Of a DNA stretch of 53,340 bases, positions 5,026 to 44,733 are shown piece after piece. A model generated the notes under the pieces. It made no database searches and was not told where the DNA came from. It saw only the letters and a program-made list of their open reading frames with translations. The first letter of the stretch is position 1, and each line of letters starts with the position of its first letter. This stretch comes from Curvibacter delicatus NBRC 14919 (GTDB taxonomy: Bacteria; Pseudomonadota; Gammaproteobacteria; Burkholderiales; Burkholderiaceae_C). The stretch covers positions 1 to 53,340 of the forward strand of contig NZ_BCWP01000026.1 of assembly GCF_001592265.1 (NCBI RefSeq). The letters are read 5' to 3'. Position numbers and translations under genes: made by a program.

Positions 5026-5146
5026 GTTTTTGAGGTTAGCCAATGCCGAACAACAGCGCAACACATGGAAACCCTCTGCCCACGCTGGGCCACCAGAGAA
5101 CAATCTGGCACACTTCAGCCAGATCAACCCTGAAGTCGCTATCCCC

Positions 5147-5464
5147 ATGGCAAGCAAGAGCACAGACAACAGCGGTGTCTCGCAAACACCGGCTTCACTT
5201 TACCGCGCCGACCACCAGAAAGACGTGGTCAACCGACTACGCCGCATCGAAGGCCAGGTGCGCGGCCTGGTCGAGATGATCCAGGCTGGCCGCTCCTGCG
5301 AGGATGTAGCCCTGCAGATGTCAGCTGCACGCAAGGCGATGGACAAGGCCTTCTACCGGATGATGGCCTGCTCCGTCATCGAGGCGATCTCCGATGCCGA
5401 GAACGATGCCGAAGCCATTGTCGAGGTCGAACGCTCGACCAAGCTGCTCGAAAAATTCGGCTGA
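5147..5464 (+). CDS. CsoR/RcnR/CstR family transcriptional regulator
   Basis: A 105-residue all-helical repressor of the DUF156 family; the segment HQKDVVNRLRRIEGQVRGL is the family signature. Cys51 (GRSC) and Cys75 (MMAC) are present, but the histidines that complete copper or nickel/cobalt sites in CsoR and RcnR are not visible. A two-cysteine site is typical of persulfide sensors such as CstR, and the sox neighbourhood agrees, though the Cys spacing (24) is shorter than in CstR. It is divergent from the cytochrome gene with about 120 bases between them. The ATG has only a weak ribosome site. Confidence 0.8.
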   Translation: MASKSTDNSGVSQTPASLYRADHQKDVVNRLRRIEGQVRGLVEMIQAGRSCEDVALQMSAARKAMDKAFYRMMACSVIEAISDAENDAEAIVEVERSTKLLEKFG

Positions 5465-5538
5465 GCAGCGGTCGCATCCACACTGACGGACTGACATCAA
5501 ATCGGGCTTTCTTCTCGCCGTTGTTGCGCCAACAGCTA

Positions 5539-6222
5539 TTATTTCAATAGCATTGAAAAGTCAGCGATAACGCGGTCAGGACCACAGGCCTCAATCGGCT
5601 GCCCCATGTTGTAGCCATAGGGCAAGACCCAGACCGGCACGCCCGCATTGCGCGCAGCGGCCACATCGATCGACGAATCCCCCACGAACAAGGCCCGCTC
5701 GGCCGCCACCTGGAACTGCGCCAGGCAGCTGAGGATTCCGGCCGGATCGGGCTTCTTGGTCGGCAGGCTGTCGCCGCTGACGACCTGATCGAACAAGGGC
5801 TGCAACGCGTGTGCGGCCAGTACGCGTTGGGTATACCGCGCTTCCTTGTTGGTCACCACGGCCAGGCGCACACCCTGCTGCCGCAGCTGCTGCAGCGTTT
5901 CGCGCACCTGCGGGTAGAGCTGGCTGCGCGCGCCGCAGCGCCGCTCGTAGTGAACCGCAAATTCCGCCATCACGTGGGGCAAGGTGTCGCTGGCACGCAC
6001 GGCCTCGACCGTCATCTGCTGCACAAAAGCCAGCGCCTGGATCAGCAACTCGCGCGTCCCGAGACCAATCCAGCGGTCGACGCTGTCTTGCGCCACTTCG
6101 GAATAGCCGAAATGCTTCAGTGTGTCATTGACCGCATCAGCAATCTCAGCGGCGGTTTCGATCAGCGTGCCATCGAGGTCGAACATGACCAGATCGAAGG
6201 CTCGAGAGGGGAGCGTACTCAT
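5539..6222 (-). CDS. cbbZ: phosphoglycolate phosphatase (HAD family), cbb locus
   Basis: This 227-residue HAD hydrolase has the DxD nucleophile motif (FDLDGTLIET, residues 15-24), the Thr/Lys region (VVTNKE, then KKPDP) and GDSSIDV as motif IV. It removes phosphate from 2-phosphoglycolate made by the RuBisCO oxygenase reaction. It is the last gene of the minus-strand cbb cluster, after the phosphoribulokinase gene. The housekeeping name gph would be equally valid. Confidence 0.85.
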   Translation of the reverse strand: MSTLPSRAFDLVMFDLDGTLIETAAEIADAVNDTLKHFGYSEVAQDSVDRWIGLGTRELLIQALAFVQQMTVEAVRASDTLPHVMAEFAVHYERRCGARSQLYPQVRETLQQLRQQGVRLAVVTNKEARYTQRVLAAHALQPLFDQVVSGDSLPTKKPDPAGILSCLAQFQVAAERALFVGDSSIDVAAARNAGVPVWVLPYGYNMGQPIEACGPDRVIADFSMLLK

Positions 6223-6334
6223 GGATTCAATACAAAAGAAAACAGGACCAGACCGGCAAGGTTACACGGCTGTGGCAAGCAGCCTCGAAGCACTCCGCCG
6301 ATGCAGCGCGCCGACGGCGCTGAAAAAGCCCGCC

Positions 6335-7219
6335 TCACCCCACGCCCAGAGCCCGCTTGCGCCGCTCCATCATGCGCCAGACGAAGGGCGTGAAAATCAA
6401 CTGCATGGCCAGTTCCATCTTGCCGCCTGGCACGACGATGGTGTTGGCACGCGACATGAAGCTGTCGTGAATCATGTTCAGCAGGTACTGGAAGTCGATG
6501 CCTTTCGGGCTGGCGAAACGGATCACCACCATGCTCTCGTCGGCCGACGGGATGTCGCGCGCGATGAAGGGGTTGGAGGTGTCCACCATCGGCACACGCT
6601 GGAAATTCACATGGGTGTGGGCAAACTGCGGCACGATGTAGTTCACGTAGTCAGGCATGCGGCGCAGGATGGTGTCGGTCACGGCCTCGGTGCTGTAGCC
6701 GCGCTGGTGCTGGTCGCGCCAGAGCTTCTGGATCCACTCCAGGTTGATCACCGGCACCACGCCAACCAGCAAATCCGGATGCTGCGCAATGTTGTGCTCC
6801 GGCGTGACCAGGGCACCATGCAGGCCCTCGTAGAACAGCATGTCGGTGTCGGGCGGCAGGTCCTCCCAGGCGGTGAACGTACCGGGAGCCTGCTGGTAAG
6901 GCGCCGCTTCCTCGTCGTTGTGCAGGTACTTGCGCGCCCGCCCCTGGCCCGATTGGGCATACGTGCGAAACAGGGTTTCCAGCTCGCCGAACAGGTTGTT
7001 GTCTGCGCCAAAATGGCTGAAGTGCTTGTTGCCGGCCTGCTCGGCCTCGGCCGCCTTGCGCTTCATTTCCTGGCGGTTGTAGCGGTGAAAGCTGTCGCCC
7101 TCGACGATGGCGGCCTTGACGCCTTCGCGACGGAAGATATTGGCGAAGGTACGCGTTACCGTGGACGTGCCGGCACCGGACGAACCGGTGATGGCGATGA
7201 TGGGGTGGCGTTCAGACAC
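6335..7219 (-). CDS. cbbP: phosphoribulokinase
   Basis: This 294-residue kinase makes ribulose-1,5-bisphosphate from ribulose-5-phosphate and ATP, the step before RuBisCO. The P-loop GSSGAGTSTV lies at about residues 13-22. Length and sequence fit the proteobacterial class I enzyme. The start codon is GTG (7217-7219) behind an AGGAGA site. It lies between cbbF and cbbZ on the same strand. Confidence 0.94.
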   Translation of the reverse strand: MSERHPIIAITGSSGAGTSTVTRTFANIFRREGVKAAIVEGDSFHRYNRQEMKRKAAEAEQAGNKHFSHFGADNNLFGELETLFRTYAQSGQGRARKYLHNDEEAAPYQQAPGTFTAWEDLPPDTDMLFYEGLHGALVTPEHNIAQHPDLLVGVVPVINLEWIQKLWRDQHQRGYSTEAVTDTILRRMPDYVNYIVPQFAHTHVNFQRVPMVDTSNPFIARDIPSADESMVVIRFASPKGIDFQYLLNMIHDSFMSRANTIVVPGGKMELAMQLIFTPFVWRMMERRKRALGVG

Positions 7220-13305: not shown

Positions 13306-13330
13306 GAACAAACGCCGAAGAGGAGACTGT

Positions 13331-14239
13331 ATGGGTGCTTCACTGGACGGCAAGCTTGTCGTCGCCATTTCATCGCGCGCCCTGTTCGACTTCGAGGAAG
13401 AGAACAAGGTGTTCGAACAGGGCAACGGTCCCCACAAGGACCGTGCCTACATGAAACTGCAGCTCGACAAACTGGAAGAACCCGCCAAGCCAGGCGTGGC
13501 TTTTTCCATGGTGCGCAAGCTGCTGGCCTTCAACGACGCCAGCACGCAGCGCGTGGAAGTGGTCATCCTCTCGCGCAACGACCCGGTCTCGGGCATGCGC
13601 GTCTTTCGCTCGGCCCAGCATTACGGCCTGCCGATCGAGCGCGGCAGCTTCACGCGCGGCCAGTCCCCCTGGCGCTACCTCAAGCCGCTGCACGCCAACC
13701 TGTTCCTCTCCACCCACCTGAGCGATGTGCGCGCCGCACTCGATGCCGGCGTACCGGCGGCACAGGTCTACCCGCAATCCGCGCTCGCCAGCGACGCGCA
13801 TCCGCACGAAGTTCGGATTGCCTTCGACGGCGATGCGGTGCTCTTCAGTGATGAGGCCGAGCGCGTATTCCAGGCCCAGGGGCTGAGCGCCTTCCAGAAG
13901 CATGAACGCGACAAGGCGCTGCAGCCGCTGTCGGCCGGCCCCTTCAAGCCCCTGCTGGCCGCGCTGCACCGGCTGCAACAGGAAGGCACGCCCAACATGC
14001 GCATCCGCACTGCCCTGGTCACCGCGCGCAGCGCACCGGCACACGAGCGCGCCATCCGCACGCTGATGGAATGGAACATCGAGATCGATGAAGCCATGTT
14101 CCTCGGCGGCCTGCCCAAGGGCGAATTCCTGCGCGAGTTCGAACCCGACTTCTTCTTTGACGACCAGACTGGCCACATCGAGTCTGCGTCGCAACATGTG
14201 CCTTCAGGCCACGTCGCCAGTGGCGTCGCCAACGCCTGA
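13331..14239 (+). CDS. 5'-nucleotidase (PF06189-like)
   Basis: This 302-residue protein matches the bacterial/eukaryotic cytosolic 5'-nucleotidase family by its start (KLVVAISSRALFDFEEENKVF), a central FDGDAVLFSDEAE motif with HAD-type aspartates, and FFFDDQTGHI near the C-terminus. It would release nucleosides from 5'-nucleotides. It starts 25 bases after the thioredoxin gene, and the ABC transporter gene follows after 18 bases, so the three may be co-transcribed. Confidence 0.8.
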   Translation: MGASLDGKLVVAISSRALFDFEEENKVFEQGNGPHKDRAYMKLQLDKLEEPAKPGVAFSMVRKLLAFNDASTQRVEVVILSRNDPVSGMRVFRSAQHYGLPIERGSFTRGQSPWRYLKPLHANLFLSTHLSDVRAALDAGVPAAQVYPQSALASDAHPHEVRIAFDGDAVLFSDEAERVFQAQGLSAFQKHERDKALQPLSAGPFKPLLAALHRLQQEGTPNMRIRTALVTARSAPAHERAIRTLMEWNIEIDEAMFLGGLPKGEFLREFEPDFFFDDQTGHIESASQHVPSGHVASGVANA

Positions 14240-14257
14240 CCCGCCCAAGAGATCATC

Positions 14258-16030
14258 ATGTCACTGACCAGCAAACTGGCCGACTTCAAAGCTTTCATCC
14301 GCAACGCCTGGGCCCTGGCCGTGCCCTACTTCCAGTCGGAAGAGAAATGGAAGGCACGCGGCCTGCTCGCCGCCATCATTGCGCTCAACCTCGGCTTCGT
14401 CTACACCCTGGTGCTGTTCAACGAGTGGAACCGCTTCTTCTACGACGCACTGCAGGATAAGAACTACCCGGTCTTCCTGGAACAACTGCTGCGCTACACG
14501 GTGCTGGCTTTCATCTACATCGTCATCGCGGTCTACCGTTTCTACCTGACCCAGCAGCTGGAAATGCGTTGGCGCGCCTGGATGACGCGCCACTATCTGC
14601 AACGCTGGCTGGACAACCAGGTCTATTACCACCTGGAGCTCACACGCTACGCTGCGCTGGCAGCCGACCAGTCGCCCGACAACCCGGACCAGCGCATCCA
14701 GGAAGACCTGAAGCTGTTCACCACCAGCACCGTCGGCTTGAGCATGGGCCTGCTCAACGCACTGGTCACGCTGCTGAGCTTTGTCGGCATCCTCTGGTCA
14801 CTCAGCGGTGCTTTCAGCTTTTCGTTCAACGGCACTGAATTCGTCATTCCCGGCTTCATGCTGTGGGTGGCAATCCTCTACTGCATTGCCGGCAGCGTGA
14901 TCACCCACTACGTCGGACGCCCCCTGATCTCGCTGAACTACCAGCAACAACGGCGCGAAGCCGATTTCCGCCACAACCTGGTCCGCGTGCGTGAATACAG
15001 CGAAGCCATTGCGCTGGATCGCGGCGAGAAGGTCGAGCTGAAACAGCTTGACCTGCGCTTCAGCCATGTACTGGCCAACTACCTGCAACTGATCGACGCG
15101 CAAAAGCGTCTGACCATGTTCACCGCCACCTTCGGCCAGGCCTCGACCGTGTTCCCCTTCATCGTGGCGGCACCGCGTTTTTTCAGCGGCGCCATCCAGC
15201 TCGGCACCATGATGCAGATCGCTTCTGCTTTCGGCCGCGTGCAGGATTCGCTCTCCTGGTTCATCGACAACTATGACAGTCTGGCCAGCTGGCGTGCCAC
15301 CACCGATCGCCTGACCCATTTCGAGGCGGCCATCCAGGTTGCCAACCAGAAAGCCGACCTGCAACTCCAACGCACCGGCGCCACGAACAGTTCAGGCGTG
15401 ACGGCCAGCGACCTGTCGCTCGACCTGCCCACCGGCAGCCGCCTGCTGGCGCATACGCAGCTGAATGCCCAGCCGGGCGACAGCGTGCTGCTCAGCGGCC
15501 CCTCCGGCAGCGGCAAGTCCACCCTGTTCCGCGCCCTGGCCGGCATCTGGCCGCTGGCCTCGGGCAAGGTGATGCTGCCGGAATCGAGCATGTTCATTCC
15601 GCAACACCCCTACTTTCCGAATGCACGTCTGCGCGATGCGCTGGCCTACCCGGAACCCGCCGAGAGCTACGACGAGGAAACCCTCAAGCAGGCCTTGCGT
15701 GATGCGCTGTTGCCACACCTGGTGGACCAGCTTGATGTGGTGGATGCCTGGGGCCAGAAACTCTCGGGCGGAGAGCAGCAGCGCCTGGCACTGGCACGTG
15801 TATTCCTCAAGAAACCGTCCTGGATCTTCGCCGACGAAGCCACCAGCGCGCTGGATGAAGAAGCAGAAAAAGCCTTGTACAAACGGCTGCTGGACCTTGT
15901 CAAAGAAGGGAAAGGCGCTCTCATTTCGATAGCACACCGGCACACGGTGGCGACCTACCACAGTCGCACCTGGCAACTGGAAAAGCGCATCGACGAGGAC
16001 GTGGCGCTGTTTCAGCTGAGACAGACATAA
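14258..16030 (+). CDS. SbmA/YddA-type ABC transporter (fused permease and ATPase)
   Basis: A 590-residue half-transporter. The N-terminal part (to about residue 370) has about five to six membrane segments of the SbmA/BacA/ABCD type. The C-terminal ATPase has Walker A GPSGSGKST, signature LSGGEQQ, Walker B WIFADEATSALDE and the H-loop SIAHRHT. It probably works as a homodimer in the inner membrane. Substrates of the YddA branch are poorly defined; peptides or vitamin-B12-like compounds are known for relatives. It ends before a convergent gene. Confidence 0.85.
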   Translation: MSLTSKLADFKAFIRNAWALAVPYFQSEEKWKARGLLAAIIALNLGFVYTLVLFNEWNRFFYDALQDKNYPVFLEQLLRYTVLAFIYIVIAVYRFYLTQQLEMRWRAWMTRHYLQRWLDNQVYYHLELTRYAALAADQSPDNPDQRIQEDLKLFTTSTVGLSMGLLNALVTLLSFVGILWSLSGAFSFSFNGTEFVIPGFMLWVAILYCIAGSVITHYVGRPLISLNYQQQRREADFRHNLVRVREYSEAIALDRGEKVELKQLDLRFSHVLANYLQLIDAQKRLTMFTATFGQASTVFPFIVAAPRFFSGAIQLGTMMQIASAFGRVQDSLSWFIDNYDSLASWRATTDRLTHFEAAIQVANQKADLQLQRTGATNSSGVTASDLSLDLPTGSRLLAHTQLNAQPGDSVLLSGPSGSGKSTLFRALAGIWPLASGKVMLPESSMFIPQHPYFPNARLRDALAYPEPAESYDEETLKQALRDALLPHLVDQLDVVDAWGQKLSGGEQQRLALARVFLKKPSWIFADEATSALDEEAEKALYKRLLDLVKEGKGALISIAHRHTVATYHSRTWQLEKRIDEDVALFQLRQT

Positions 16031-16039
16031 CTCCCCCAG

Positions 16040-16125
16040 GCTTCGCTCCCTTCGTTTGCTACGCCACCCCCCTCAAGAGGGGGCAACGCCAGTGGCCCGG
16101 CCAAGCCGGTTCCACGGCGTTCCGG
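16040..16125. repeat. GC-rich palindromic intergenic element, copy 2
   Basis: Between the convergent ABC transporter and queC genes lies a second C-rich/G-rich element with CCCCCTC (16068-16074) and GAGGGGG (16077-16083) as hairpin arms, near AGTGGCCCGGCC. It resembles the element at 7296-7376 and may serve as a bidirectional terminator. Confidence 0.55.
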
Positions 16126-16158
16126 GGTCTGATGCCTTCTATCGCCAGGGCTCTGGCG

Positions 16159-16863
16159 CTAATTCGGCACTTCGGCTTTGTAACGCTCCCAGCCGCGCGC
16201 GCGCAGTTCGCAGGCCGGGCAACTGCCGCAGCCATACCCCCAGGCATGGCGGTGCGCGCGGTCGCCCAGGTAGCAGGTGTGGGTGTGCTCGATGATCAAG
16301 TCCACCAACGCGGAACCGCCCAGCGATTCAGCCAGACGCCAGGTCTCGGCCTTGTCGATCCACATCAGCGGTGTTTCGATCAGGAAGCGTTTGTCCATGC
16401 CCAGCGACAGCGCCAGCTGCATCGCCTTCATGGTGTCGTCGCGGCAATCCGGATAGCCGGAAAAATCGGTCTCGCACACGCCGGTGACGATCACCTCCAG
16501 CCCGCGGCGGTAGGCCACCGCGGCGGCCAGCGTCAGGAACAGCAGGTTGCGGCCCGGCACAAACGTATTGGGCAGGCCACTGACCTCCATCTTGAAGGCG
16601 GTTTCGCGCGTCAGCGAGGTTTCGCTCACATGCCCAAGCACTTCCAGGTCGAGCAGGTGGTCCTCGCCCAGCTTGCCCGCCCATTGCGGAAACTGGCGGC
16701 GGATCTCGCTCAACACCTTGATGCGTGATTCGAGCTCAATGTGGTGGCGCTGGCGGTAATCGAAGGCAATGGTTTCGACGCGTTCATACGCCTTGAGGGC
16801 ATGCGCCAGGCACGTGGTGGAATCCTGTCCACCAGAAAACAAAACGAGGGCGGTCTTATGCAT
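16159..16863 (-). CDS. queC: QueC, 7-cyano-7-deazaguanine synthase
   Basis: QueC converts 7-carboxy-7-deazaguanine to preQ0 with ATP and ammonia, a step in queuosine tRNA modification. The PP-loop SGGQDS lies at residues 10-15, and the C-terminal zinc cysteines are in [10 protein letters not shown] plus an upstream TCYLG. Length (234) is normal. The start is the ATG at 16863; the TTG two codons earlier is not needed. No other queuosine gene is nearby. Confidence 0.95.
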
Positions 16864-30174: not shown

Positions 30175-30912
30175 TCAGGCCCGTCGCAGTGTGAATTGCG
30201 CGAAGCCGGCGCCAAGCTGCACTGCTTGTTCCGGCGTAAGCGTCCAGGTCGGAGCGCCGGGCGCACGGCATTCCTGCAGGGCCCAGTGCTGCGCGCCGCG
30301 CGCGCGCAGATCTTCCGCCAGCGCAAATAACTCGTCCACGCCAAACAACGCCGCATGCCAGGTGGTGCGGCATTCATAGTTGGCGCCACTGCGTGCCAGC
30401 ACATCGAGTGCAGCAAAGGCGCGCGTGCCGCTGCCCGGCGAGGCGGTGATTGCGTCGTAGCGGCCTGGTCGTGCTTTGATGTCCAGACCCACCCAATCCA
30501 GCCGTGGCAGCAGCGCGGCCAGACGTTCGGGATACATGCCCGCGGTATGCAGCGCCGTCTGCATGCCCAGCGTGCGCACGACGTCGAGCGCGCTCGGCAG
30601 CGCAGCCTGCAATGTGGGCTCCCCTCCCGAAAACACCACGCCGTCGAGCAGGCCCTGCCGGCGCCGCAGGAAATCGTGTGCCTGCGCCCAAGGCAGCGCT
30701 GCGGGCGCGGTGGCATCCAGCAGCTCCTGGTTGTGGCAGTAGCTGCAGCGCCAAGGGCAACCTTGGCAGTAGAGCACCGCCGCCAGGCGGCCGGGAAAAT
30801 CAATACTGGTCAGCGGCGTTAGGCCGCCCAAGCGCAGGCCGATGGCGGCGTCAGCAGCTGCTGCGAGGGACACGGCCGGGTTCGGCAAAAAAGCGGCGTT
30901 CGTTGTGTTCAC
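30175..30912 (-). CDS. nrdG: NrdG-type radical SAM activase for class III ribonucleotide reductase
   Basis: A radical SAM protein with the cluster motif CPWRCSYC (C-x3-C-x2-C) preceded by GLTPLTSIDFPGRLAAVLYCQG, a form typical of activases paired with NrdD. SGGEPTLQ is the SAM-binding GGE motif. It would install the glycyl radical on the separate NrdD C-terminal protein. The start is uncertain: GTG at 30912 is listed, with GTG 30873 and ATG 30996 as alternatives. All overlap the preceding small gene. Confidence 0.88.
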   Translation of the reverse strand: MNTTNAAFLPNPAVSLAAAADAAIGLRLGGLTPLTSIDFPGRLAAVLYCQGCPWRCSYCHNQELLDATAPAALPWAQAHDFLRRRQGLLDGVVFSGGEPTLQAALPSALDVVRTLGMQTALHTAGMYPERLAALLPRLDWVGLDIKARPGRYDAITASPGSGTRAFAALDVLARSGANYECRTTWHAALFGVDELFALAEDLRARGAQHWALQECRAPGAPTWTLTPEQAVQLGAGFAQFTLRRA

Positions 30913-31051
30913 CTTGCTTGCCAACGTTGAAGCTGGCAACCGGCCGGTGGTAACCCATGACCCGCGTCCAGACCTCGCAGGGTTGGCGCTCTGCATCGCT
31001 CAGCTGCACTTCGGTTACGGGGATTTTCTCGATGGTGGCGAGTTCGCTCAT
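30851..31051 (-). CDS. stand-alone glycyl-radical domain of class III ribonucleotide reductase
   Basis: This 66-residue protein contains CEVWTRVMGYHRPVASFN followed by GKQGEHNERRFF. This matches the C-terminal glycyl-radical segment of NrdD (R-V-x-G-Y with the radical glycine, then N-x-GK-x-E). That segment is missing from the large NrdD upstream, so the two proteins together make one complete enzyme. The ATG at 31051 has its own AAAGGAAG site. NrdD ends 66 bases upstream, and the frames are separated by stops, so this looks like a true gene split rather than one sequencing error. Confidence 0.8.
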   Translation of the reverse strand: MSELATIEKIPVTEVQLSDAERQPCEVWTRVMGYHRPVASFNVGKQGEHNERRFFAEPGRVPRSSC

Positions 31052-35266: not shown

Positions 35267-35611
35267 TTGTTTACCATGGAATTCATGCAGGCCCGGCTGG
35301 GAATGGAGCGCTTGGACAGCGTCAACCAATTTCTCACGCCCGCAGGCATTGCACCACGGCAGCATCGAGCCATTGAGACCACCGACATCCTGCTGCAGAT
35401 GGTGGCTAGCGGCCGAGGGGTGACAGCACTACCTCGCTGGCTGGTTGAGGAGTACGCAGCGGACATGGACATCGTCCCGGTGCGCCTGGGTCGCACCGGT
35501 CTGAAAAAGCAGATTTTTCTTGGTCTGCGCGAGGTGGATGGCGAAGTGAGCCATCTGCAGGTCTTCTTGGACCTGGCGCGGAGCTGCCACGAATATTGGC
35601 ATTCGATGTGA
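35267..35611 (+). pseudogene. metR: C-terminal fragment of metR (LysR family)
   Basis: A 114-codon frame matches only the effector domain end of MetR: ERLDSVNQFLTPAGI, then IETTDILLQMVASGRGV and LPRWLVEEYA. The helix-turn-helix and first effector lobe (about 190 residues) are absent. The frame begins at the edge of pabB, which marks a breakpoint at about 35270. No metE is visible. It is very unlikely to be functional as a regulator. Confidence 0.85.
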
Positions 35612-35776: not shown

Positions 35777-36484
35777 TCACGTCCAATGGGCGAACACCAG
35801 ATGGCCGAGCAGCACATCTGGCCGCGGGATATGGTCACGCGCGTGCCGCGTTTCGAAGCCCGATTGCCGAAACTTCAGCGGCCTGACTGTGACGGCAGTC
35901 CCGTCCGGGTGGCGAATCACGCGCAGGAGGCGCACCATCTCCGGTTGCTGGATGGCCCGCACCAGAGCGTCGACTACCGACTTTACATGCTCGGGTTTTT
36001 CGACAAGGCCCACCATGAAGCCGAAGTCCGAGTCGCGCGCGTAGATCGCATTGACGAAGCGGGTCACGCCATCCTTGCAATAGGCCAGGCGCGACTGATT
36101 GCCGCCCGGCTTGAGCTTCATCTTCTTGAACTCGAGAACGAAGTCCAACGGCGGGTCGGTGCGGTCACTAAAGTAGCTGATGTCGGAACGTCCGCGTGCC
36201 TCAAGTACCTTCTTGGCCTCGTCGACGTCGGCTTGTACCGCTTCCGGGGAAAACAGACCGGTGATGCCGTTGCGCATGGCGTTCTTGCGCAGCGAATGCC
36301 CGAAATACTGGGTGATCTTCGGCTCTGGATTGGCAAAGTGCATGTCACCCGGCGGGTTGGCCTGCAACTCCTGCCAATGGGCCACCACGTAGGCCAGAAC
36401 CTGTTCGACGGTGCTTTGCCGCCCGAAGGCGCCTTGCCAACGGACATCCGAGAGAACCTGGTGGTAGCGCGCCGGTGCCTTCAT
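35777..36484 (-). CDS. PD-(D/E)XK-like protein partnered with the methyltransferase (putative restriction subunit)
   Basis: This 235-residue protein is not one I recognise as a named family. A central segment, SDISYFSDRTDPPLDFVLEFKKMK (residues 100-123, written in parts: acidic residues D101, D107, D114, then E118-F-K120), has the spacing of a PD-(D/E)XK nuclease active site inside predicted beta strands. The start codon directly follows the methyltransferase stop (36485), so the two are translationally coupled and probably form one complex. Restriction-type cleavage is inferred, not shown. The last 25 residues are Pro/His-rich and may be altered by a boundary nearby. Confidence 0.65.
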   Translation of the reverse strand: MKAPARYHQVLSDVRWQGAFGRQSTVEQVLAYVVAHWQELQANPPGDMHFANPEPKITQYFGHSLRKNAMRNGITGLFSPEAVQADVDEAKKVLEARGRSDISYFSDRTDPPLDFVLEFKKMKLKPGGNQSRLAYCKDGVTRFVNAIYARDSDFGFMVGLVEKPEHVKSVVDALVRAIQQPEMVRLLRVIRHPDGTAVTVRPLKFRQSGFETRHARDHIPRPDVLLGHLVFAHWT

Positions 36485-39400
36485 TTACTGGATGGAGACG
36501 CCTTGGCGCACGGTCTGGACGATCCGCCAGGCATCCTGGGCTGCGGCGGTGGCTAGCCATAGGCGTCGTACCAGCGGCTTGACGAAGTAGTAATCGCCGC
36601 CGTGGAACAGCAGCAGGTCAGAGGCAACGGTCAGTCCTTCGCTGCCCACTTGGGGAAAAGCATCGGAGCCGCGCAGTTGCTGCAACACATTTTCTACCGC
36701 TGCCGGCGTGGTCGTGCGCTTGGTCCGTCCAGTGGAAAGACCGATCCGCACCACGCCCATGGCGCCGGGCTCGGCCGCTTTCGGGCGGCTGAGTTCTACG
36801 TCGAACTCGCCCTCACCCTGAAGCCGCACGCGCCAAGTTTCCAGTTCGTCGCGCAGCAACCGGGCGTAGGTGTTGTACTCGTTGGCCGCGGGCGGGCGGA
36901 ACAGTTGCAGGCGCAGCCGTTGCAGGCTGCGTGGCAGACGGCTGGGAATAATAAAATCGCAAGTGTCACTCACCACGGTGCGCTCGGTCGCCGACAGCTC
37001 GAAGTAATCGAACAGCAGTTCGTCCATTTCGGCGCGCGCGCGCGCCCACTCGTCGTTCCCTTCCACAACGCGCACCTGTTGGAAAGGCTTGAGCACCTCG
37101 GCCACGCGTTTGACAATCTTGCGGGCATGCGATGGGCTCTTATGCCGCTCCGGCAGCACGAAGGGCAGCTTCTCGATCTCACGCAGCTTCACATGCGGAC
37201 GCTCCATGGTGAGCGAGAAAGAGGTGTAAAAAAGTAGATAGCGCGCTAGCTTTGAGCGCAGGTAGGCTGTAAAAAACAGCATCAGGTCGCTGTCGCCTTC
37301 CTTGTCCACGATGGCCCCCACGCTCTGCATGAAGCAGAACGGTTTGTCGCTGTAGCAGGCCCGCACTTCCAGTGTATGGTTGTGCGCGCCGTCCGGAAAT
37401 AACACACGCACGCCTTCGAAGGCCTGGCCATCGGCTGAGCCAAAGTCCGCTACGGTGGGAATTTCCTTCACAGGGAAATCGTCCAGGTCGCGATGGTTAA
37501 TGAACATGCGATCGCGCGGGAATTTGCTGGCGCCGATCGCGGTGCTCAAGAACTTGTACTTGTGCAGTCGTTTGGAACTGGAAGGCTCTTTGCTGGAGTC
37601 CAGTCGGTGGAAACCCTTGCAGATCACGAAGCGCGCCTTGGGTCCGCGCGACTGGTCCTCGATGGTGCCGTACAGGCGCAGGCGCGCGATCAATGATTCA
37701 TCCAGCTCGTTACCCCAGAAATAAGTACGCAACACCTCCGGATCGTCCGCCGCTGTTAGGGTGTTTAGGCGCTTGCGGTCGAAGCTGTGCGCGGTGAGGC
37801 GTCCGAACGCCAGCGAAATGTCCGCCTTGGGCACCATGTACTCAAAACTCTCGCGCGGCGGGATGCGTTGCGCGTCTTCGACGCGGCGCTCGCCGGTGAA
37901 CACCAGCGTCGGGTGGTCGGCGCCTTCGAACAGCACAAATCGCATGTCCGCGAGGTTGATCAGGCGCTGCGGCGCGACCTCGCAGAACCAATCCTTAAGG
38001 TAGACGCCTGCGGACGCGGCGCCCAACGTCGATACGGGCAACAGCAGGCAGATACGCCCGCCGACCTTCACAACCTCGCTCGCACGCCGGGCGAACGCCA
38101 GGGCGATCTGTCGGCGCGGCAGGGGTGTGTTGAAGCGCTGCATCCACCACCGCTCGTAGGAGCGTTCATCGTCGGCGCGTGGCTCGAACCAGGGCGGATT
38201 GGACAGGATGATGGTCGCGCCACCGGGTTTGGCGATCGCGTTGCGCGCGGAGAAGAAGTCGCCCTGGCCATCGCGTGTCAGAACCGTGCCCATCAGGGGA
38301 GGCAGTTTGACCTCCTGATCGTCCTGCAGGCGAGCGATGTCGCTGGGAGCCAGATCTTCAAGCAGCGCAAGGTAGAGGCTGAACGCGGTAACTTTGCAGG
38401 CAGCCGATGACGTGTCACCTCCCCGGATACCCGCCAGTAGCACGTCCTGGCGTTCCTCGTAGCGCAACTCGCGCTGCAGGCTGGCCCGGCGTGCGCCGAG
38501 CATACGGCGGTAGGCGCTGGTTAGCAGGATACCGCTGCCGCACGCGCCATCCAGAACAACTTCCATCCAGGGCTTATCGACACCGCGGAAGGCCTCGTCG
38601 ACCGCCAGGGCGGCCAGGTGGCGTGGCGTGTAGAAGGCGCCCATCTCGCGCTGGGCGCCGCCCAGAAAGGTTTCGTAGATACCCGACAGAAGCTCCACCG
38701 GGATGAAGTTGAAGTCGTAGGGCCAGAGTGACCGCTGCTGGTCGCGCAGACGTGTGTGGAGCAGGAACTGGGCGAGCAAGTCCAGCACTTCCATAGACAG
38801 GCCGCGCCAGTCCACGTTTGAGCCGCCCTCGATCTCCAGCAGATCACCGTTGAAGTCACTTTTAAGACGCCGAAAAAGGCGGTCCAGGCCACGGCCATCG
38901 CCCGCGTGCAGCAAGTCGAGAAGCTGGCCCACCTTATGGCGCTCGCGGTAGTGGTCGCCCACGATGCCGCGGTGCTCCAGAAAGGACACGAAGATGCACT
39001 TGCCAAGCAGCAGCTGCGCCTGCTCCTGCGACAGATCAAAACCCATCAGCTTATCAACCGCCACGTCTAGGTTGTCCTGCATGACGCGGTCGACACGATG
39101 GGCGCGGTTGAACCATTCGGGCAGACGGCTGGCAATGTCCCCGCGCGCGACCTCCGCCGCGGAGAAGCGCCCTTCGGCATTGGCTTGATCAAGCGCCAGG
39201 GTGGAGTCGGCCCGCAGATCGCGCGCAGCGGGATAAGGCACGGCCTCGCGCCCCCTCACGATTACGACGATGGAAACCAGGTTCTGGTTCCATATCTTGC
39301 TGCGCACCTCGTCGATGAACCGTGCATCTAGCGGTTGGCTGCCATCCGGCTCCACGAAACACACCGCAGGCACCTGGTCGACCTCGAACACCGCCGAACC

Positions 39401-39544
39401 TGAGGCCCCCGGCGTGCGCAGCATTAGGTCGATTTCGCGCGCGTAAGGGTGGTCCGAACGAACATCGCCCGGCGTGCGATGGACGACGCCCACCGAGCCG
39501 TCATAGCCCAGTGTCTGCAGCCAGTCGTCGATTGCCGCTTTCAT
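36485..39544 (-). CDS. large N6-adenine DNA methyltransferase (type II/IIG-like)
   Basis: A 1019-residue protein. Residues 1-110 form an N-terminal domain of the type seen in Eco57I-like modification enzymes. A helical region follows, then YTPRHLAALAVDEA (305-318), SAM-binding motif DGACGSGIL (332-340) and catalytic NPPW (449-452) for adenine N6 methylation. The C-terminal 450 residues probably include target recognition. The N-terminal domain lacks a clear nuclease ExK, so cutting may depend on the 235-residue partner encoded next. It is divergent from a BrxR/CapW-type regulator with a shared operator. Confidence 0.85.
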   Translation of the reverse strand: MKAAIDDWLQTLGYDGSVGVVHRTPGDVRSDHPYAREIDLMLRTPGASGSAVFEVDQVPAVCFVEPDGSQPLDARFIDEVRSKIWNQNLVSIVVIVRGREAVPYPAARDLRADSTLALDQANAEGRFSAAEVARGDIASRLPEWFNRAHRVDRVMQDNLDVAVDKLMGFDLSQEQAQLLLGKCIFVSFLEHRGIVGDHYRERHKVGQLLDLLHAGDGRGLDRLFRRLKSDFNGDLLEIEGGSNVDWRGLSMEVLDLLAQFLLHTRLRDQQRSLWPYDFNFIPVELLSGIYETFLGGAQREMGAFYTPRHLAALAVDEAFRGVDKPWMEVVLDGACGSGILLTSAYRRMLGARRASLQRELRYEERQDVLLAGIRGGDTSSAACKVTAFSLYLALLEDLAPSDIARLQDDQEVKLPPLMGTVLTRDGQGDFFSARNAIAKPGGATIILSNPPWFEPRADDERSYERWWMQRFNTPLPRRQIALAFARRASEVVKVGGRICLLLPVSTLGAASAGVYLKDWFCEVAPQRLINLADMRFVLFEGADHPTLVFTGERRVEDAQRIPPRESFEYMVPKADISLAFGRLTAHSFDRKRLNTLTAADDPEVLRTYFWGNELDESLIARLRLYGTIEDQSRGPKARFVICKGFHRLDSSKEPSSSKRLHKYKFLSTAIGASKFPRDRMFINHRDLDDFPVKEIPTVADFGSADGQAFEGVRVLFPDGAHNHTLEVRACYSDKPFCFMQSVGAIVDKEGDSDLMLFFTAYLRSKLARYLLFYTSFSLTMERPHVKLREIEKLPFVLPERHKSPSHARKIVKRVAEVLKPFQQVRVVEGNDEWARARAEMDELLFDYFELSATERTVVSDTCDFIIPSRLPRSLQRLRLQLFRPPAANEYNTYARLLRDELETWRVRLQGEGEFDVELSRPKAAEPGAMGVVRIGLSTGRTKRTTTPAAVENVLQQLRGSDAFPQVGSEGLTVASDLLLFHGGDYYFVKPLVRRLWLATAAAQDAWRIVQTVRQGVSIQ

Positions 39545-39575
39545 ATGGGTTCCACCATATCAGAAATACTATCTT

Positions 39576-39594
39576 CACGCAATCATATTGCGTG
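39576..39594. promoter_or_regulatory. predicted operator of the WYL regulator
   Basis: A perfect inverted repeat CACGCAAT-CAT-ATTGCGTG lies in the 94-base gap between the methyltransferase and the divergent WYL gene. BrxR and CapW regulators bind inverted repeats in such promoters and repress the defence genes. Confidence 0.7.
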
Positions 39595-39638
39595 GATTAA
39601 CAAAAATAGGTAAGCTAATTAAAAAATGTAGGTGTCGA

Positions 39639-40550
39639 ATGACCACAGATTTCAACGTCGACAAGTTGCGTTTCGCGCAGCGGCAACGCCTGACCTTCAT
39701 TGAGTCAGTGGCTTTTTGGGAAGGCCGCGTGGACCGCCCGCGCGTGTCCAGCGTCTTCAACGTCAGCGAAAACCACGTCACCAAGGATTTCCGGCTGTAC
39801 AAGGACGCGTTCCCGGGCAACCTGCAGTACGACGAGACCGCCCGGGCCTATCGCCCTACCCGCAAGTTCAAACCGCATATCGGCAAGGGCTCAGCCGAGG
39901 AATATCTGGCGCTGCTGCGCGCGCAGGCCGAGAAGAACGAGGGAGTGATGGTGCCTGCGGGCACGACGGCGGTAACAACCGATGCTGTTCCTCCACTGCG
40001 TGGCCGGCTCGAAGCGGCGATCCTGAATGCCGTCACCCGGGCCATCTCGTCGCAGACGGGCTTGACAGTGAGTTACCAGTCGCGCAGCCGAGCCGAGCCG
40101 AGCGCGCGCAAGGTCTGGCCACACGCATTGCTATTCAGCGGCACACGCTGGCACGCCCGCGCCTACGACGAAGAACGCAATACGTTCATCGATCTGGTGC
40201 TACAGCGCATCCTCACGGCGACCGCACTAAATGCGGCCACGCCACGCCCATCTTCCGAAGACAAGGCTTGGGCGCGTTGGGTGGAAATTGATGTCGTCCC
40301 GAGCAGGGCGCTATCGGCCAGCCAGGCCGAAGTCGTGGCCCGCGAGTTCGGCATGAACCAGGCCGGACGCGGTTGGGTGTGGAGAGCGCGTATGCGCGAA
40401 TGCCTAGTTGGCTACTTCATCTACCTGCACAGGCTAGACTTGAAGTCCGACCCTCAGCGTCTGATCGAGCTGAAGGACCCGGCACTCGCGCAACGCTACT
40501 TGATGCCGCGCGGGGGCAGTGATGACAACATTTCCAAAGCGACCGCCTGA
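39639..40550 (+). CDS. BrxR/CapW-like WYL-domain transcriptional regulator
   Basis: A 303-residue regulator. The N-terminal winged helix (about 8-75) reads LRFAQRQRLTFIESVAFWEG, then RPRVSSVFNVSENHVTKDF, followed by a FKPHIG linker, as in BrxR of BREX and CapW of CBASS. The WYL domain (about 140-210) has WPHALLFSGTRWHARAYD and a C-terminal WCX-like region follows. These proteins repress phage-defence operons until a signal is sensed. The ATG at 39639 fits the family start. Its 3' end overlaps the convergent transposase-like gene by 55 bases. Confidence 0.85.
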   Translation: MTTDFNVDKLRFAQRQRLTFIESVAFWEGRVDRPRVSSVFNVSENHVTKDFRLYKDAFPGNLQYDETARAYRPTRKFKPHIGKGSAEEYLALLRAQAEKNEGVMVPAGTTAVTTDAVPPLRGRLEAAILNAVTRAISSQTGLTVSYQSRSRAEPSARKVWPHALLFSGTRWHARAYDEERNTFIDLVLQRILTATALNAATPRPSSEDKAWARWVEIDVVPSRALSASQAEVVAREFGMNQAGRGWVWRARMRECLVGYFIYLHRLDLKSDPQRLIELKDPALAQRYLMPRGGSDDNISKATA

Positions 40551-42175
40551 TCAGTCAAGCCCAGACGCATGGCGGGCGTCCTGCCATCCTGCCCGGGCAG
40601 GCTGTAGTTGTAATAAGCGCGGAAGATATGCAGCAGTTGCTGGACCACGAGCGGGCTGTACGCTGAGTAGCCATGCCATCCACGCTGGGCATTATTACGA
40701 GTTTGTAATGGACGCTCCAACACTGACAGGCGTCGACGCACCTGCATGAAGAACTTGTCGATGCCGCGCAGCGATGCGCGCATGGTCAGGCGTGCCAGGT
40801 GTTCCAACTCCAGGTCACCAAAATCCGTGAGGTACAGCAACTCCTTGCTCGGGTCAGCCATGTCGGACAGCGGGTACTCAAACCAGCCGGCCGGGTTCTT
40901 GGCACGGTGGTGGCGCAACTGGTCGACCACGTAGTGCAGCCGAACAGACTCCCTCTCAGGAACGTTGGCGCGCGCGGCGTAGCGGTCCAGATCACGGCTG
41001 ACCTGAGCGATCAGCAGCTTCTTCTTGTCTACTGAAAGGTCCTTGCCGGTCTTGACCAGAAACACGTCGCAGCGGCGTGCAAGGATCTCTTCGCAAAACG
41101 CGGCGAGACAAGCAGTATCGAGCGCCGGGTCGCGGTCCACGAACAGACGCACCCGCTCTACCGTTTGTAGCATTTTTCTCAGATGCACCATCAGCGCGAA
41201 GTACAGCACTTCGAGCTTGACTTGCATGCCGCCGTTGGGCGCCTTGAGGTCGGCAGGTAAGGTCGCTTCATTTTCCTCTGGCGCGTCGATGTCCTGGTAG
41301 TCACGTCGCAGCCACAGGCGGGCATAGTGACGGTGGACTGGCGGGACGAGGTAATCGCCTCGCGCGATGGCATCGGCTTCTACATCCTCGGGATTGCAAT
41401 CGGGATCGAAGTTCAGCTGCATGGCCAGGACATAACCGGACTCATTCTCCGCCGCGCCCACGGCTCCCAAAGTCGTATAACGACGATCCAGCTGACTGCC
41501 CCAGTTAAGCACATGATCCTGGCGGTCCACGCTGATGTATGCTCGATTCAGCGGAACCTCGCCGGCGGCGATGCGACGCTCATGCTTGGCACTGAAGTCG
41601 CTGGCTACCGCCGCCAGGTAGCCAAGCTTGCTGTACAAAGTGGCCGGGTTGAGATCCAAGACCTCGCAGATGCGGCGCATGGGGACTTTGTTAACCACCA
41701 GTTTGAGCACGTCGACATTTACTTCCGGGCGCCTTTGGGTGCGCAGGGGCGAGCCGCCTGTGAGCGTCGAGCCGCAGCCCTTGCAGCGGTAGCGCGGCTC
41801 GCCGGCAGCGGTGCGTCCGTACTTCTGATAGCGCTCTGGATGCTCATCTACGCTCATGCCGAAAGCAGCGCATAGCGGCGTGGCGCAGGAAGTCCGCGCG
41901 GCGCGCAGGCGGTGTGGGTCGAGCCGAATGACCTCCTGCGCGATCGCCAAGTTGCTGCGCAGCGCCGAACTGCGCTGGCAAAAGTGGCACGTAAGCTGCC
42001 GCAGGCTGCGGCGCCCGCCGATCACCCGATAAGGGTCCTGCGAGGCATTGACCCTCCCCTCGGGTGCCTGCGCTGCAGGAATCCCGAAGTTCGGACACGT
42101 TGGCGTCTTGCAGTGGTTAACCTGGATGCCGCCGACCTCGAATGGAATCCGGGGATGTTGCTTGGGCTGGCTCAC
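40496..42175 (-). CDS. zinc-ribbon DDE transposase-like protein
   Basis: This protein of about 560 residues begins with two tandem zinc-ribbon units, each C-x4-C then C-x2-C (CKTPTC/CHFC and CATPLC/CKGC). A helix-turn-helix-like region (VPMRRICEVLDLNPATLYSKL) follows, then an RNase-H-like domain with acidic positions in ISVDRQDHVLNW, RLFVDRDPALD and SVLERPLQTRNN. The end, YYNY then TPAMRLGL, is typical of transposases. I find no matching terminal inverted repeats. GTG at 42175 is listed; GTG at 42247 is also open but lies inside a palindrome. Confidence 0.6.
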   Translation of the reverse strand: MSQPKQHPRIPFEVGGIQVNHCKTPTCPNFGIPAAQAPEGRVNASQDPYRVIGGRRSLRQLTCHFCQRSSALRSNLAIAQEVIRLDPHRLRAARTSCATPLCAAFGMSVDEHPERYQKYGRTAAGEPRYRCKGCGSTLTGGSPLRTQRRPEVNVDVLKLVVNKVPMRRICEVLDLNPATLYSKLGYLAAVASDFSAKHERRIAAGEVPLNRAYISVDRQDHVLNWGSQLDRRYTTLGAVGAAENESGYVLAMQLNFDPDCNPEDVEADAIARGDYLVPPVHRHYARLWLRRDYQDIDAPEENEATLPADLKAPNGGMQVKLEVLYFALMVHLRKMLQTVERVRLFVDRDPALDTACLAAFCEEILARRCDVFLVKTGKDLSVDKKKLLIAQVSRDLDRYAARANVPERESVRLHYVVDQLRHHRAKNPAGWFEYPLSDMADPSKELLYLTDFGDLELEHLARLTMRASLRGIDKFFMQVRRRLSVLERPLQTRNNAQRGWHGYSAYSPLVVQQLLHIFRAYYNYSLPGQDGRTPAMRLGLTDQAVALEMLSSLPPRGIK

Positions 42176-42230
42176 GACGGTACATTTTACCCAGCGCTGC
42201 TGATGGTGCTGTGCCGCCAGAGAATGGCAG

Positions 42231-42275
42231 CTAGGGCCTGTTCGCACTTGAGAAATTAGTGTGAAGAGGCCCTAG
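42231..42275. repeat. 45-base imperfect palindrome upstream of the transposase-like gene
   Basis: Two 18-base arms, CTAGGGCCTGTTCGCACT and its near reverse complement, pair with two mismatches around a 9-base loop. No T-run follows on either strand. The arms resemble insertion-sequence ends meeting head to head, but no second copy is seen at the other side of the gene. Confidence 0.7.
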
Positions 42276-42503
42276 CCGTAAACACTGGATGTTTCCTATC
42301 GCCGAGGGCTCTCACTCGGTCCAGTCCCTGCCGGCCTACCTGGAGCGCGCTATCGCCATACCTGACGCGATTCGAGCATTTTGGAGTCGCGGCTGGAATT
42401 CGAAGCGATCAAAGCTCAAGAAGCCGATACAAACGAATAGGAAGAAATACGAGTCAGTCGGCTATCTGCGGCACCGTCTCGGGAGATAGGTGCCTCCAAA
42501 AGG
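42276..42503. other. intergenic stretch without a supported gene
   Basis: Between the palindrome and the minus-strand terminator the only frame is a 66-codon plus-strand frame (42289-42489). It is basic at its C-terminus, without a ribosome site or recognisable motif. Nothing else is seen. Confidence 0.3.
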
Positions 42504-43809: not shown

Positions 43810-44733
43810 TTATCTCTTCGGCGCTTTGTATACCAGCACCTTGAGCGAGCGATCGGCTGACACGTCGGCAAATACCGGCGGATTGGACACGCGCTCTACA
43901 AACGCGAGCTGGGGGGCCAGTTGCTGCATCTGGTCTTGCAGGAAAGCCAGGCCCAATTCCGGAGCGTTCAGACACAGCAAGGCATGACCGTCCGGCGCCA
44001 GCAGATCCGGCAGGCGGCGCATGAGGCGCGCGTAATCCTTGCTGGCAACAAAGCTGCCTTTCTGATAACTGGGCGGATCGAGAATGATCAGGTCGTAGGG
44101 GCCGCCACGCGTGACCTTGCCCCAGGACTTGAAGATGTCGTGGGCCAGGAAGCTGGCCCCGGCAGCGATGCCGTTGAGCTGGTGGTTCTGCTGCCCGATG
44201 GCCAGCGCACCGTGACTCATGTCCACATTGACCACCTGCTGTGCCCCGGCCTGCCGTGCCACCACGGAGAAGGCACAGGTGTAGGCAAACAGGTTGAGCA
44301 CTTTGAGCCCCGGGTGGGCCGCCGCATGCTCGCGCACCCAGCACCGGCCCTCGGCCATGTCGAGAAACAAGCCGTGGTTCTGCCCCTTGAGCACATGGAC
44401 CCGAAAGCTCGCACCGTGCTCCGTCACCACATGCGGCTCGGGCACGCTGCCGGCCATCAGTCGTGTGTCGGTTCGCCCTTCGTGCCGGCACTGGAAGACC
44501 CAGTTGAACGGCTGCCCGGGAGCCAGTTGCTCCCAGCGAGCAGACAAGGCCGCGTGCACGGTGGCCAATTCATCATCGGCAACCGGCTGGAAGCTGGTCA
44601 GCACCCAGACCGGCGGGAAGGCATCCAACGACAAATGCTCACAGCCGGGATACCGGCCGCCACGGCCATGAAACACGCGCTGGGCATCCAGCGGCAGGCC
44701 CATCGTTGCAATGGCATTCAAGAGGGCTTGCAC
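43810..44733 (-). CDS. class I SAM-dependent methyltransferase, RlmI/RlmK-like
   Basis: A 307-residue methyltransferase with LNLFAYTCAFSVVARQAGA as SAM-binding motif I, VVNVDMSHGAL as motif II and the catalytic LDPPSYQKGSF. It resembles the rRNA m5C/m7G methyltransferases RlmI and RlmK but lacks the N-terminal PUA domain of RlmI. The target is probably 23S rRNA (inferred). It lies 21 bases upstream of the SQR-like gene on the same strand. Confidence 0.82.
   Translation of the reverse strand: MQALLNAIATMGLPLDAQRVFHGRGGRYPGCEHLSLDAFPPVWVLTSFQPVADDELATVHAALSARWEQLAPGQPFNWVFQCRHEGRTDTRLMAGSVPEPHVVTEHGASFRVHVLKGQNHGLFLDMAEGRCWVREHAAAHPGLKVLNLFAYTCAFSVVARQAGAQQVVNVDMSHGALAIGQQNHQLNGIAAGASFLAHDIFKSWGKVTRGGPYDLIILDPPSYQKGSFVASKDYARLMRRLPDLLAPDGHALLCLNAPELGLAFLQDQMQQLAPQLAFVERVSNPPVFADVSADRSLKVLVYKAPKR

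Follow-up and report, generated by a model that had tools for sequence, protein, structure and literature searches.

Type IIG restriction enzymes combine DNA cleavage and methylation in a single polypeptide chain (PMC4081073), and the coming apart of combined restriction-modification enzymes into two chains is a proposed step (PMC6158711). A lone PD-(D/E)XK protein of Haloferax volcanii, HVO_A0006, has been linked to Type IIG-like enzymes and is flanked by transposition genes (PMC4389544). Here we describe a locus within a 53,340-nucleotide stretch of Curvibacter delicatus NBRC 14919 (contig NZ_BCWP01000026.1, referred to below as the window) that encodes a large N6-adenine methyltransferase (M), a small predicted nuclease (R), and a WYL-domain regulator (W). 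The best explanation, to which we assign a probability of roughly 0.6, is that the locus is a two-subunit restriction-modification system in which M is responsible for methylation and recognition, R for cleavage, and W is a probable repressor. This explanation is carried by an intact methyltransferase core in M, an N-terminal region of M that lacks a conserved E-x-K motif, a predicted nuclease-type site in R, and the near-obligate coupling of the two genes, all of them read from sequence.

In such a two-subunit system, M would use its C-terminal half, which we infer to read the DNA target, to recognize a short sequence, and it would methylate adenine in the host DNA. R would bind M, perhaps via the nuclease-like N-terminal domain of the latter, and cut unmethylated DNA bound by M, whereas M itself would not cut. 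Unmethylated phage DNA would be the target, and W would repress the divergent M-R operon until phage or DNA damage signals relieve the repression, as proposed for BrxR and CapW. A division of modification/recognition and cleavage between separate chains had been put forward in an earlier sequence-only reading of this DNA and is supported by the R model, by the invariant residues of R, and by the pairing of the two genes described below.

The methyltransferase M

The same reading had taken M for an N6-adenine methyltransferase on the strength of its DGACGSG and NPPW motifs, in agreement with a Pfam N6_Mtase match (8.9e-9) and the invariance of both motifs (D332-GACGSG and NPPW452) in all 8 aligned M sequences. 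In PADLOC, residues 6-1013 of M are matched with 747.6 bits by PDLC03623 (“Type IIG restriction enzyme-methyltransferase,” REase_MTase_IIG) over positions 7-1013 of its 1022, and the same model matches all 17 M homologs tested. This nearest library family assumes one chain, and PADLOC has no model for R. The AlphaFold2 (AF2) model of M, built from 19 sequences (mean predicted local distance difference test [pLDDT] score, 83.7), yields fold matches to M.BseCI, CamA, PglX/BrxX, BpuSI, MmeI, and DrdV with E values from 1e-16 to 1e-10.

In that model, residues 35-105 form a helix-strand-strand-helix-strand-strand succession, an order of elements close to that of the PD-(D/E)XK core. Within residues 1-149, no column contains 75% or more of either Asp/Glu or Lys among the 19 sequences, and no E-x-K motif is conserved; strand 58-64, the expected place of that motif, has no charged pair, and residues 54 and 56 end strand 49-55. 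In the 8 closest M sequences, acidic residues are kept at positions 37 (8/8), 39 (6/8), 54 and 56 (7/8 each), 131 (8/8), and 143 (6/8), and no lysine is kept. These acids may have a structural role, or they may be what is left of an active site or a variant form of one. M therefore has the gamma-class adenine methyltransferase core of a Type IIG enzyme but no recognizable cleavage site in the same chain, as judged from the missing E-x-K motif in 19 sequences, although the acids of the closest 8 leave an unusual site conceivable. That M is a complete Type IIG enzyme in its own right, as annotated, is doubtful though not disproved, and as long as no one-chain cleavage site is found, the system should not be filed under Type IIG.

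The predicted nuclease R

The R protein of the window has no match in Pfam, PADLOC, NCBIfam (E values up to 1), or PHROGs (0.01). Twenty homologs have none in PADLOC and only two single-member Pfam matches, which look like chance. Residues E54, D101, E118, K120, F143, H214, and H228 are invariant in all 25 aligned homologs; in a partly different set of 18 sequences, E54, D101, E118, K120, and H214 are found in all 18 and H228 in 17. The D...E118-F-K120 pattern seen in the sequence-only reading holds for D101, E118, and K120 (20 of 20 R sequences) but not for F119, which varies. In the AF2 model of R (18 sequences; pLDDT, 84.8), helix 54-72 carries E54, D101 falls between strands 93-99 and 102-106, and strand 113-122, with E118 and K120, is followed by helix 129-144 and strand 154-161. 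The arrangement typical of PD-(D/E)XK nucleases, with Asp and E-x-K on neighboring strands and an acidic residue in the preceding helix, is found in the model, and the residues themselves in 25 of 25 sequences.

A Foldseek search with the R model returned nucleases as 19 of the 20 best matches, all of them weak (best E value, 0.03): seven chains of BamHI, three of FokI, two of MunI, one of BstEII, and two each of a restriction-endonuclease-like protein, SduA/Shedu, and an arenavirus endonuclease, the remaining chain being unrelated. Because the Foldseek scores are weak, the fold call for R rests mainly on the residue pattern and the topology. The nuclease suspected in the sequence-only reading is thus echoed in a faint resemblance of the model to restriction enzyme folds and in an invariant PD-(D/E)XK-type residue set. 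We consider R a predicted PD-(D/E)XK nuclease, with the fold matches as support and not as proof.

Coupling of M and R across genomes, plasmids, and viral contigs

R was found directly 3′ of M in 29 of the 30 M loci opened, even where M identity is as low as ∼20%, so the two proteins of the sequence-only reading do co-occur. (A locus with an M match at residues 237-357 only, L005, was left out of the M locus counts.) When 399 genomes of the order were searched, 6 matched the R profile and 7 the M profile, and all 6 R genomes are within the 7 (Fisher P = 1.3e-12, or 7e-11 without the own genome). These searches scored no more than 7 candidates per genome for R and 2 for M, with E value limits of 1e-3 for R and 1e-30 for M. 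In the seventh M genome (G106), R is also encoded directly 3′ of M and is too divergent for the first R search. At the phylum level, R is present, each time beside M, in 6 of 398 genomes, two of which (the own genome and G349) had been seen before; at the genus level, it is present in 3 of 26 genomes, one of them with two loci. A scan of genome contigs yielded a single relative, L007.

The same coupling is seen on plasmids: M is present in 21 records, and these include all 17 that have R. In the four records with M (24-29% identity) that the R search missed, a protein of 214-229 amino acids (aa) abuts M and carries the invariant residues. Every R was found beside M or, in 11 unopened plasmid records, at adjoining coordinates of the same record; for Pseudosulfitobacter, 1 of 12 records was opened, and the other eleven have the same match statistics. 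Three plasmid loci carry a split or incomplete M (L008:5963-8964, L012:5897-8822, and L011:7631-9025) and were kept in the counts because their R is intact. Of four viral contigs with M, three have R, and a search of 50,697 phage records found neither R (E value of 0.01) nor M (1e-20). Over the 24 junctions measured, the M-R gap ranges from −20 to +12 bp, with a 4-bp overlap in 13 (where a locus lacks annotation, the R start codon is our own choice). Judged from these gene neighborhoods, the M and R genes form a near-obligate pair and in most cases overlap.

Alternative explanations

Several observations weigh against the two-subunit explanation. An unusual, lysine-free cutting site is possible in the M proteins of the closest subgroup because acids 37, 54, and 56 are kept in 7 or 8 of the 8 sequences, and the N-terminal alignment of the diverse 19-sequence M set may be imperfect. 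A viral contig (L052:5989-8823) encodes an M homolog with 59-61% identity, as a 944-aa frame, and no R. No Foldseek match of R reaches an E value of 0.001, and the TM-scores of the top 20, normalized by query length, do not exceed 0.32. A sequence search of the PDB detected no solved relative of R, the best profile match being the lambda repressor (E value of 0.04, probably by chance). Finally, a profile comparison detected no relation between R and the N terminus of M; on the same comparison, the idea that R is a copy of this domain was rejected.

If M does cut, either as a true Type IIG or as a two-site enzyme, R would be a second-strand cutter or an accessory factor. The uniform PADLOC calls for the 17 M proteins tested would favor this, and the acids kept in the closest subgroup could serve such a site; BamHI-like nucleases use E-x-E instead of E-x-K. 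A precedent for the role of R is provided by some Type IIT enzymes, in which a small unspecific subunit cuts the second strand only (PMC4081073). We nevertheless regard cleavage by M as quite unlikely: the L010 M has Cys and Gly at positions 54 and 56 although the L010 R is intact, no acidic column survives in the 19-sequence set, and the modeled positions of residues 54 and 56, at the end of their strand and next to one without a charged pair, do not fit. Less unlikely, yet still not favored, is an orthodox two-gene Type II system, in which R alone would recognize and cut its own site and M would only protect. Type IIP systems as a rule have separate restriction and modification genes, and the ∼125 residues of R outside positions 54-161 could read DNA. 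However, a single R family accompanies M proteins with as little as ∼20% identity, which would be less expected if R had to read each new site on its own, and the length and fold of M are those of combined Type IIG or BREX (bacteriophage exclusion)-type enzymes.

Two further explanations concern the nature of R and appear improbable to the same degree. R might be an abortive-infection nuclease that is held in check by M and freed by the loss of M activity or of methylation. The overlap of the R gene with M would suit such an arrangement, and so would W, since WYL regulators of its kind have been linked to CBASS, the cyclic-oligonucleotide-based antiphage signaling system (PMC9122588), but a methyltransferase as partner is just as compatible with restriction. 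Alternatively, R might not be a nuclease at all, its E...D...E-x-K pattern belonging to some other fold. The weak Foldseek statistics and the lack of a Pfam family in 20 R proteins, beyond the two single-member matches, would agree with that; the invariance of E54, D101, E118, and K120 in all 25 aligned sequences and their placement in the expected secondary-structure elements of the model argue to the contrary.

Implications

A broader version of the two-subunit explanation, for which we would offer slightly less than even odds, is that a whole clade currently filed as single-chain Type IIG consists of two-subunit machines, whose M has lost its nuclease and guides an unnamed PD-(D/E)XK family, R, in trans. 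If true, this clade would represent a surviving stage between Type IIG enzymes of one chain and Type II systems of two genes. Its regulators (WYL, MerR-like, and small helix-turn-helix [HTH] proteins) would be interchangeable, and plasmids, prophage-like contigs, and a transposase-like cassette would be its vehicles. A group of bacterial defense enzymes may then have been described with a subunit missing, for which R is the candidate. Catalogs that call M a Type IIG enzyme expect cleavage and methylation from a single gene; if the two-subunit explanation holds, cloning M alone would give methylation without restriction.

Regulators

The sequence-only reading had described W as a BrxR/CapW-type WYL protein divergent from M. 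Indeed, W has a WYL domain match (2e-12), its best solved matches are CapW and BrxR (2.3e-31 to 3.1e-24; 7tb5, 7tb6, 9c5g, 7t8k, and 7qfz, within residues 23-291), and the sequence relation extends over the winged helix and the WYL domain. Because BrxR is a demonstrated repressor (PMC9122601), W is, by analogy, a probable repressor of M-R. An imperfect palindrome in the M/W divergent region was rejected as the operator of W, being not significant (20 of 200 shuffles were as good), and is listed in Table 1 as a candidate only. The criterion that picked it out gave no palindrome in L007, L014, or L015, and no sigma-70 consensus was found in the M/W divergent region.

As a component of the locus, the WYL regulator is present here, as had been noted, but it is swappable: W is divergent from M in 6 of 29 M-R loci (the window, L007, L014, L015, L016, and L041), and L053 retains a 68-aa W fragment. 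Genes of other types upstream of M (surveyed in the loci other than L008, L011 to L013, L043, L047, L048, L053, and L133 to L136) include MerR family genes, annotated in L009 and L010 and matching Pfam MerR_1 above the cutoff in L042 and L046 and below it in L049 and L055. Small HTH proteins occupy this position in L044, L045, L050, and L054, where they have subthreshold matches, and in L062, where the protein has no match. Since WYL regulators are confined to 6 of the 29 loci and MerR-like or small HTH proteins occur elsewhere, the core of the system is M-R. In L016, a 1,048-aa protein beside W (13309-16455) looks by eye like another large restriction enzyme, and this locus is perhaps a small defense island. 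The divergent M-R pair of L062 is preceded by JAB-like and ThiF-like genes (5085-6517, by eye), which we take to resemble PRTRC plasmid genes.

Gene layout, cassette, and island

The positions and lengths that the sequence-only reading had given for R, M, and W agree with the open reading frames (ORFs), according to which R directly abuts M (0-bp gap) and the ATG start of W lies 94 bp from M (Table 1). The three genes of that reading are all present; a fourth, T, which overlaps W by 55 bp at their 3′ ends on opposite strands, had been missed. In a single pairwise comparison with L007, the ratio of nonsynonymous to synonymous substitution rates (dN/dS) is 0.067 for R, 0.075 for M, and 0.113 for W and falls between 0.07 and 0.11 for all four genes. 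These low values indicate that R, M, W, and T are under purifying selection and are not chance frames.

Table 1. Features of the M-R locus and its surroundings in the window
Feature	Coordinates	Strand	Basis or remarks
R: 235-aa predicted PD-(D/E)XK nuclease subunit (E54, D101, E118-x-K120)	35777..36484	-	ORF, invariant residues, AF2 model, Foldseek
M: 1019-aa gamma-class N6-adenine methyltransferase	36485..39544	-	Pfam, PADLOC, AF2 model
M/W divergent region	39545..39638	no strand	Holds imperfect palindrome 39574-39596 (operator candidate)
W: BrxR/CapW-type WYL regulator, divergent from M	39639..40550 (ATG); alternative TTG start 39588	+	
T: 583-aa zinc-ribbon, transposase-like protein	40496..42247	-	Convergent with W
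T-W-M-R block, minus the first 24 codons of T and the last codons of R	35786..42176		blastn versus L007
∼23-kb island	19257-42565		Missing at the site in G024; 12-bp direct repeat GGCATCCAGCCG at both ends

T carries an IS1/InsA-like zinc ribbon and a D241/D371/E511 pattern, read by eye, like that of DDE transposases. It occurs as a single copy in its own genome, and no conspicuous inverted repeat flanks T or the cassette, so T does not qualify as an insertion sequence (IS). T also neighbors M-R in L007, L014, and L045; within the flanks examined, it is found in 4 of 29 M-R loci and is adjacent to M-R in all four. None of 19 plasmid records with T is among the 21 with M, and none of 9 T plasmid loci opened carries M, R, or W. 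T was therefore rejected as a required fourth subunit. Among the 399 genomes, M is found in 2 of the 6 with T (P = 0.004; 1 of 5 without the own genome, P = 0.07), and the association seems to be more than chance. Most likely, T is a mobility gene that has moved together with this form of the cassette.

The T-W-M-R block is collinear with L007, a Burkholderiales metagenome-assembled genome, over ∼6.4 kb with 83.5% nucleotide identity, and blastn shows no homology beyond either end. L014 has the same gene order, with identities near 40% for M, W, and T and 29% for R; in L045, T is located at the R end instead. The relative G024 (96% identity in the flanking oxidoreductase) lacks 19268-42554 of the window at this site and has the two flanks side by side, which places the cassette at the end of an island; in G003, the same flanks are ∼1.3 kb apart. 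The island also carries cobalamin synthesis (cbi) genes and, by eye, anaerobic ribonucleotide reductase-like and pabB-like genes. Of the gene scars that had been claimed on both sides of the locus, the one on the R side was confirmed: a 114-aa frame (35267-35611) is the remnant of a LysR/MetR-type regulator, whose C-terminal part is all that it matches; the other side was examined by the empty-site comparison only. Other M-R pairs are carried by plasmids typed as conjugative (6 of 10 opened) and by three contigs from a viral collection, one of which has terminase-like and portal-like genes (by eye).

A 19-bp imperfect inverted repeat upstream of T (42230-42276) has related copies in contig C43 and in the relatives L127 and L128 and is perhaps a REP (repetitive extragenic palindromic)-like element or an IS-end remnant. 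PADLOC gives two further matches in the window, to a methyltransferase that lies outside the island (43810-44733; mad2, 3e-18) and to a radical-SAM gene (30175-30996; a weak viperin match, 3e-9), and both look like general family resemblance.

Comparison with known systems

A literature search, which left REBASE and most subscription journals outside its range, listed no match whose title or start of abstract dealt with the M-R pair. With BREX, the locus shares the match of the M model to PglX (4.5e-14) and a BrxR-type regulator, but it has a two-gene core with a nuclease candidate of its own. PglZ (Pfam) has no match in the whole own genome, in a search whose control was positive in 2 of 14 genomes, and no BrxC was found in a PADLOC scan of R, M, W, T, and 10 more genes of the window, a genome-wide search not having been made. 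There is no CD-NTase or effector of CBASS next to W, whose neighbors are M and T. The sequence-only reading had likewise set the locus apart from canonical BREX and CBASS.

Like Type IIH (AhdI) and Type I systems, the locus combines a gamma-class adenine methyltransferase with a nuclease on its own chain, but there is no separate S gene beside the pair, and R, at 235 aa, is not long enough to be an HsdR helicase. Orthodox Type IIP/IIS systems likewise consist of two genes, for an adenine methyltransferase and a small PD-(D/E)XK-like protein; unlike them, M is nearly twice as long as the CamA or M.BseCI chain and keeps a nuclease-like N-terminal domain, and R is one conserved family across divergent M proteins. 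HVO_A0006 (PMC4389544) also combines a PD-(D/E)XK protein on its own chain with a Type IIG-like link and nearby transposition genes; it is a fragment homologous to the Type IIG N terminus, whereas R is not detectably related to that of M. The locus also resembles Type IIG/IIL enzymes: M is matched at full length by PDLC03623, and its model matches BpuSI, MmeI, and DrdV. Unlike these enzymes, M has an N-terminal domain without E-x-K and, in 29 of 30 loci, a separate R beside it. As a two-subunit restriction-modification system, the locus would work like a Type IIG enzyme taken apart, and M-R offers a natural case for the way in which combined enzymes may split into two chains.

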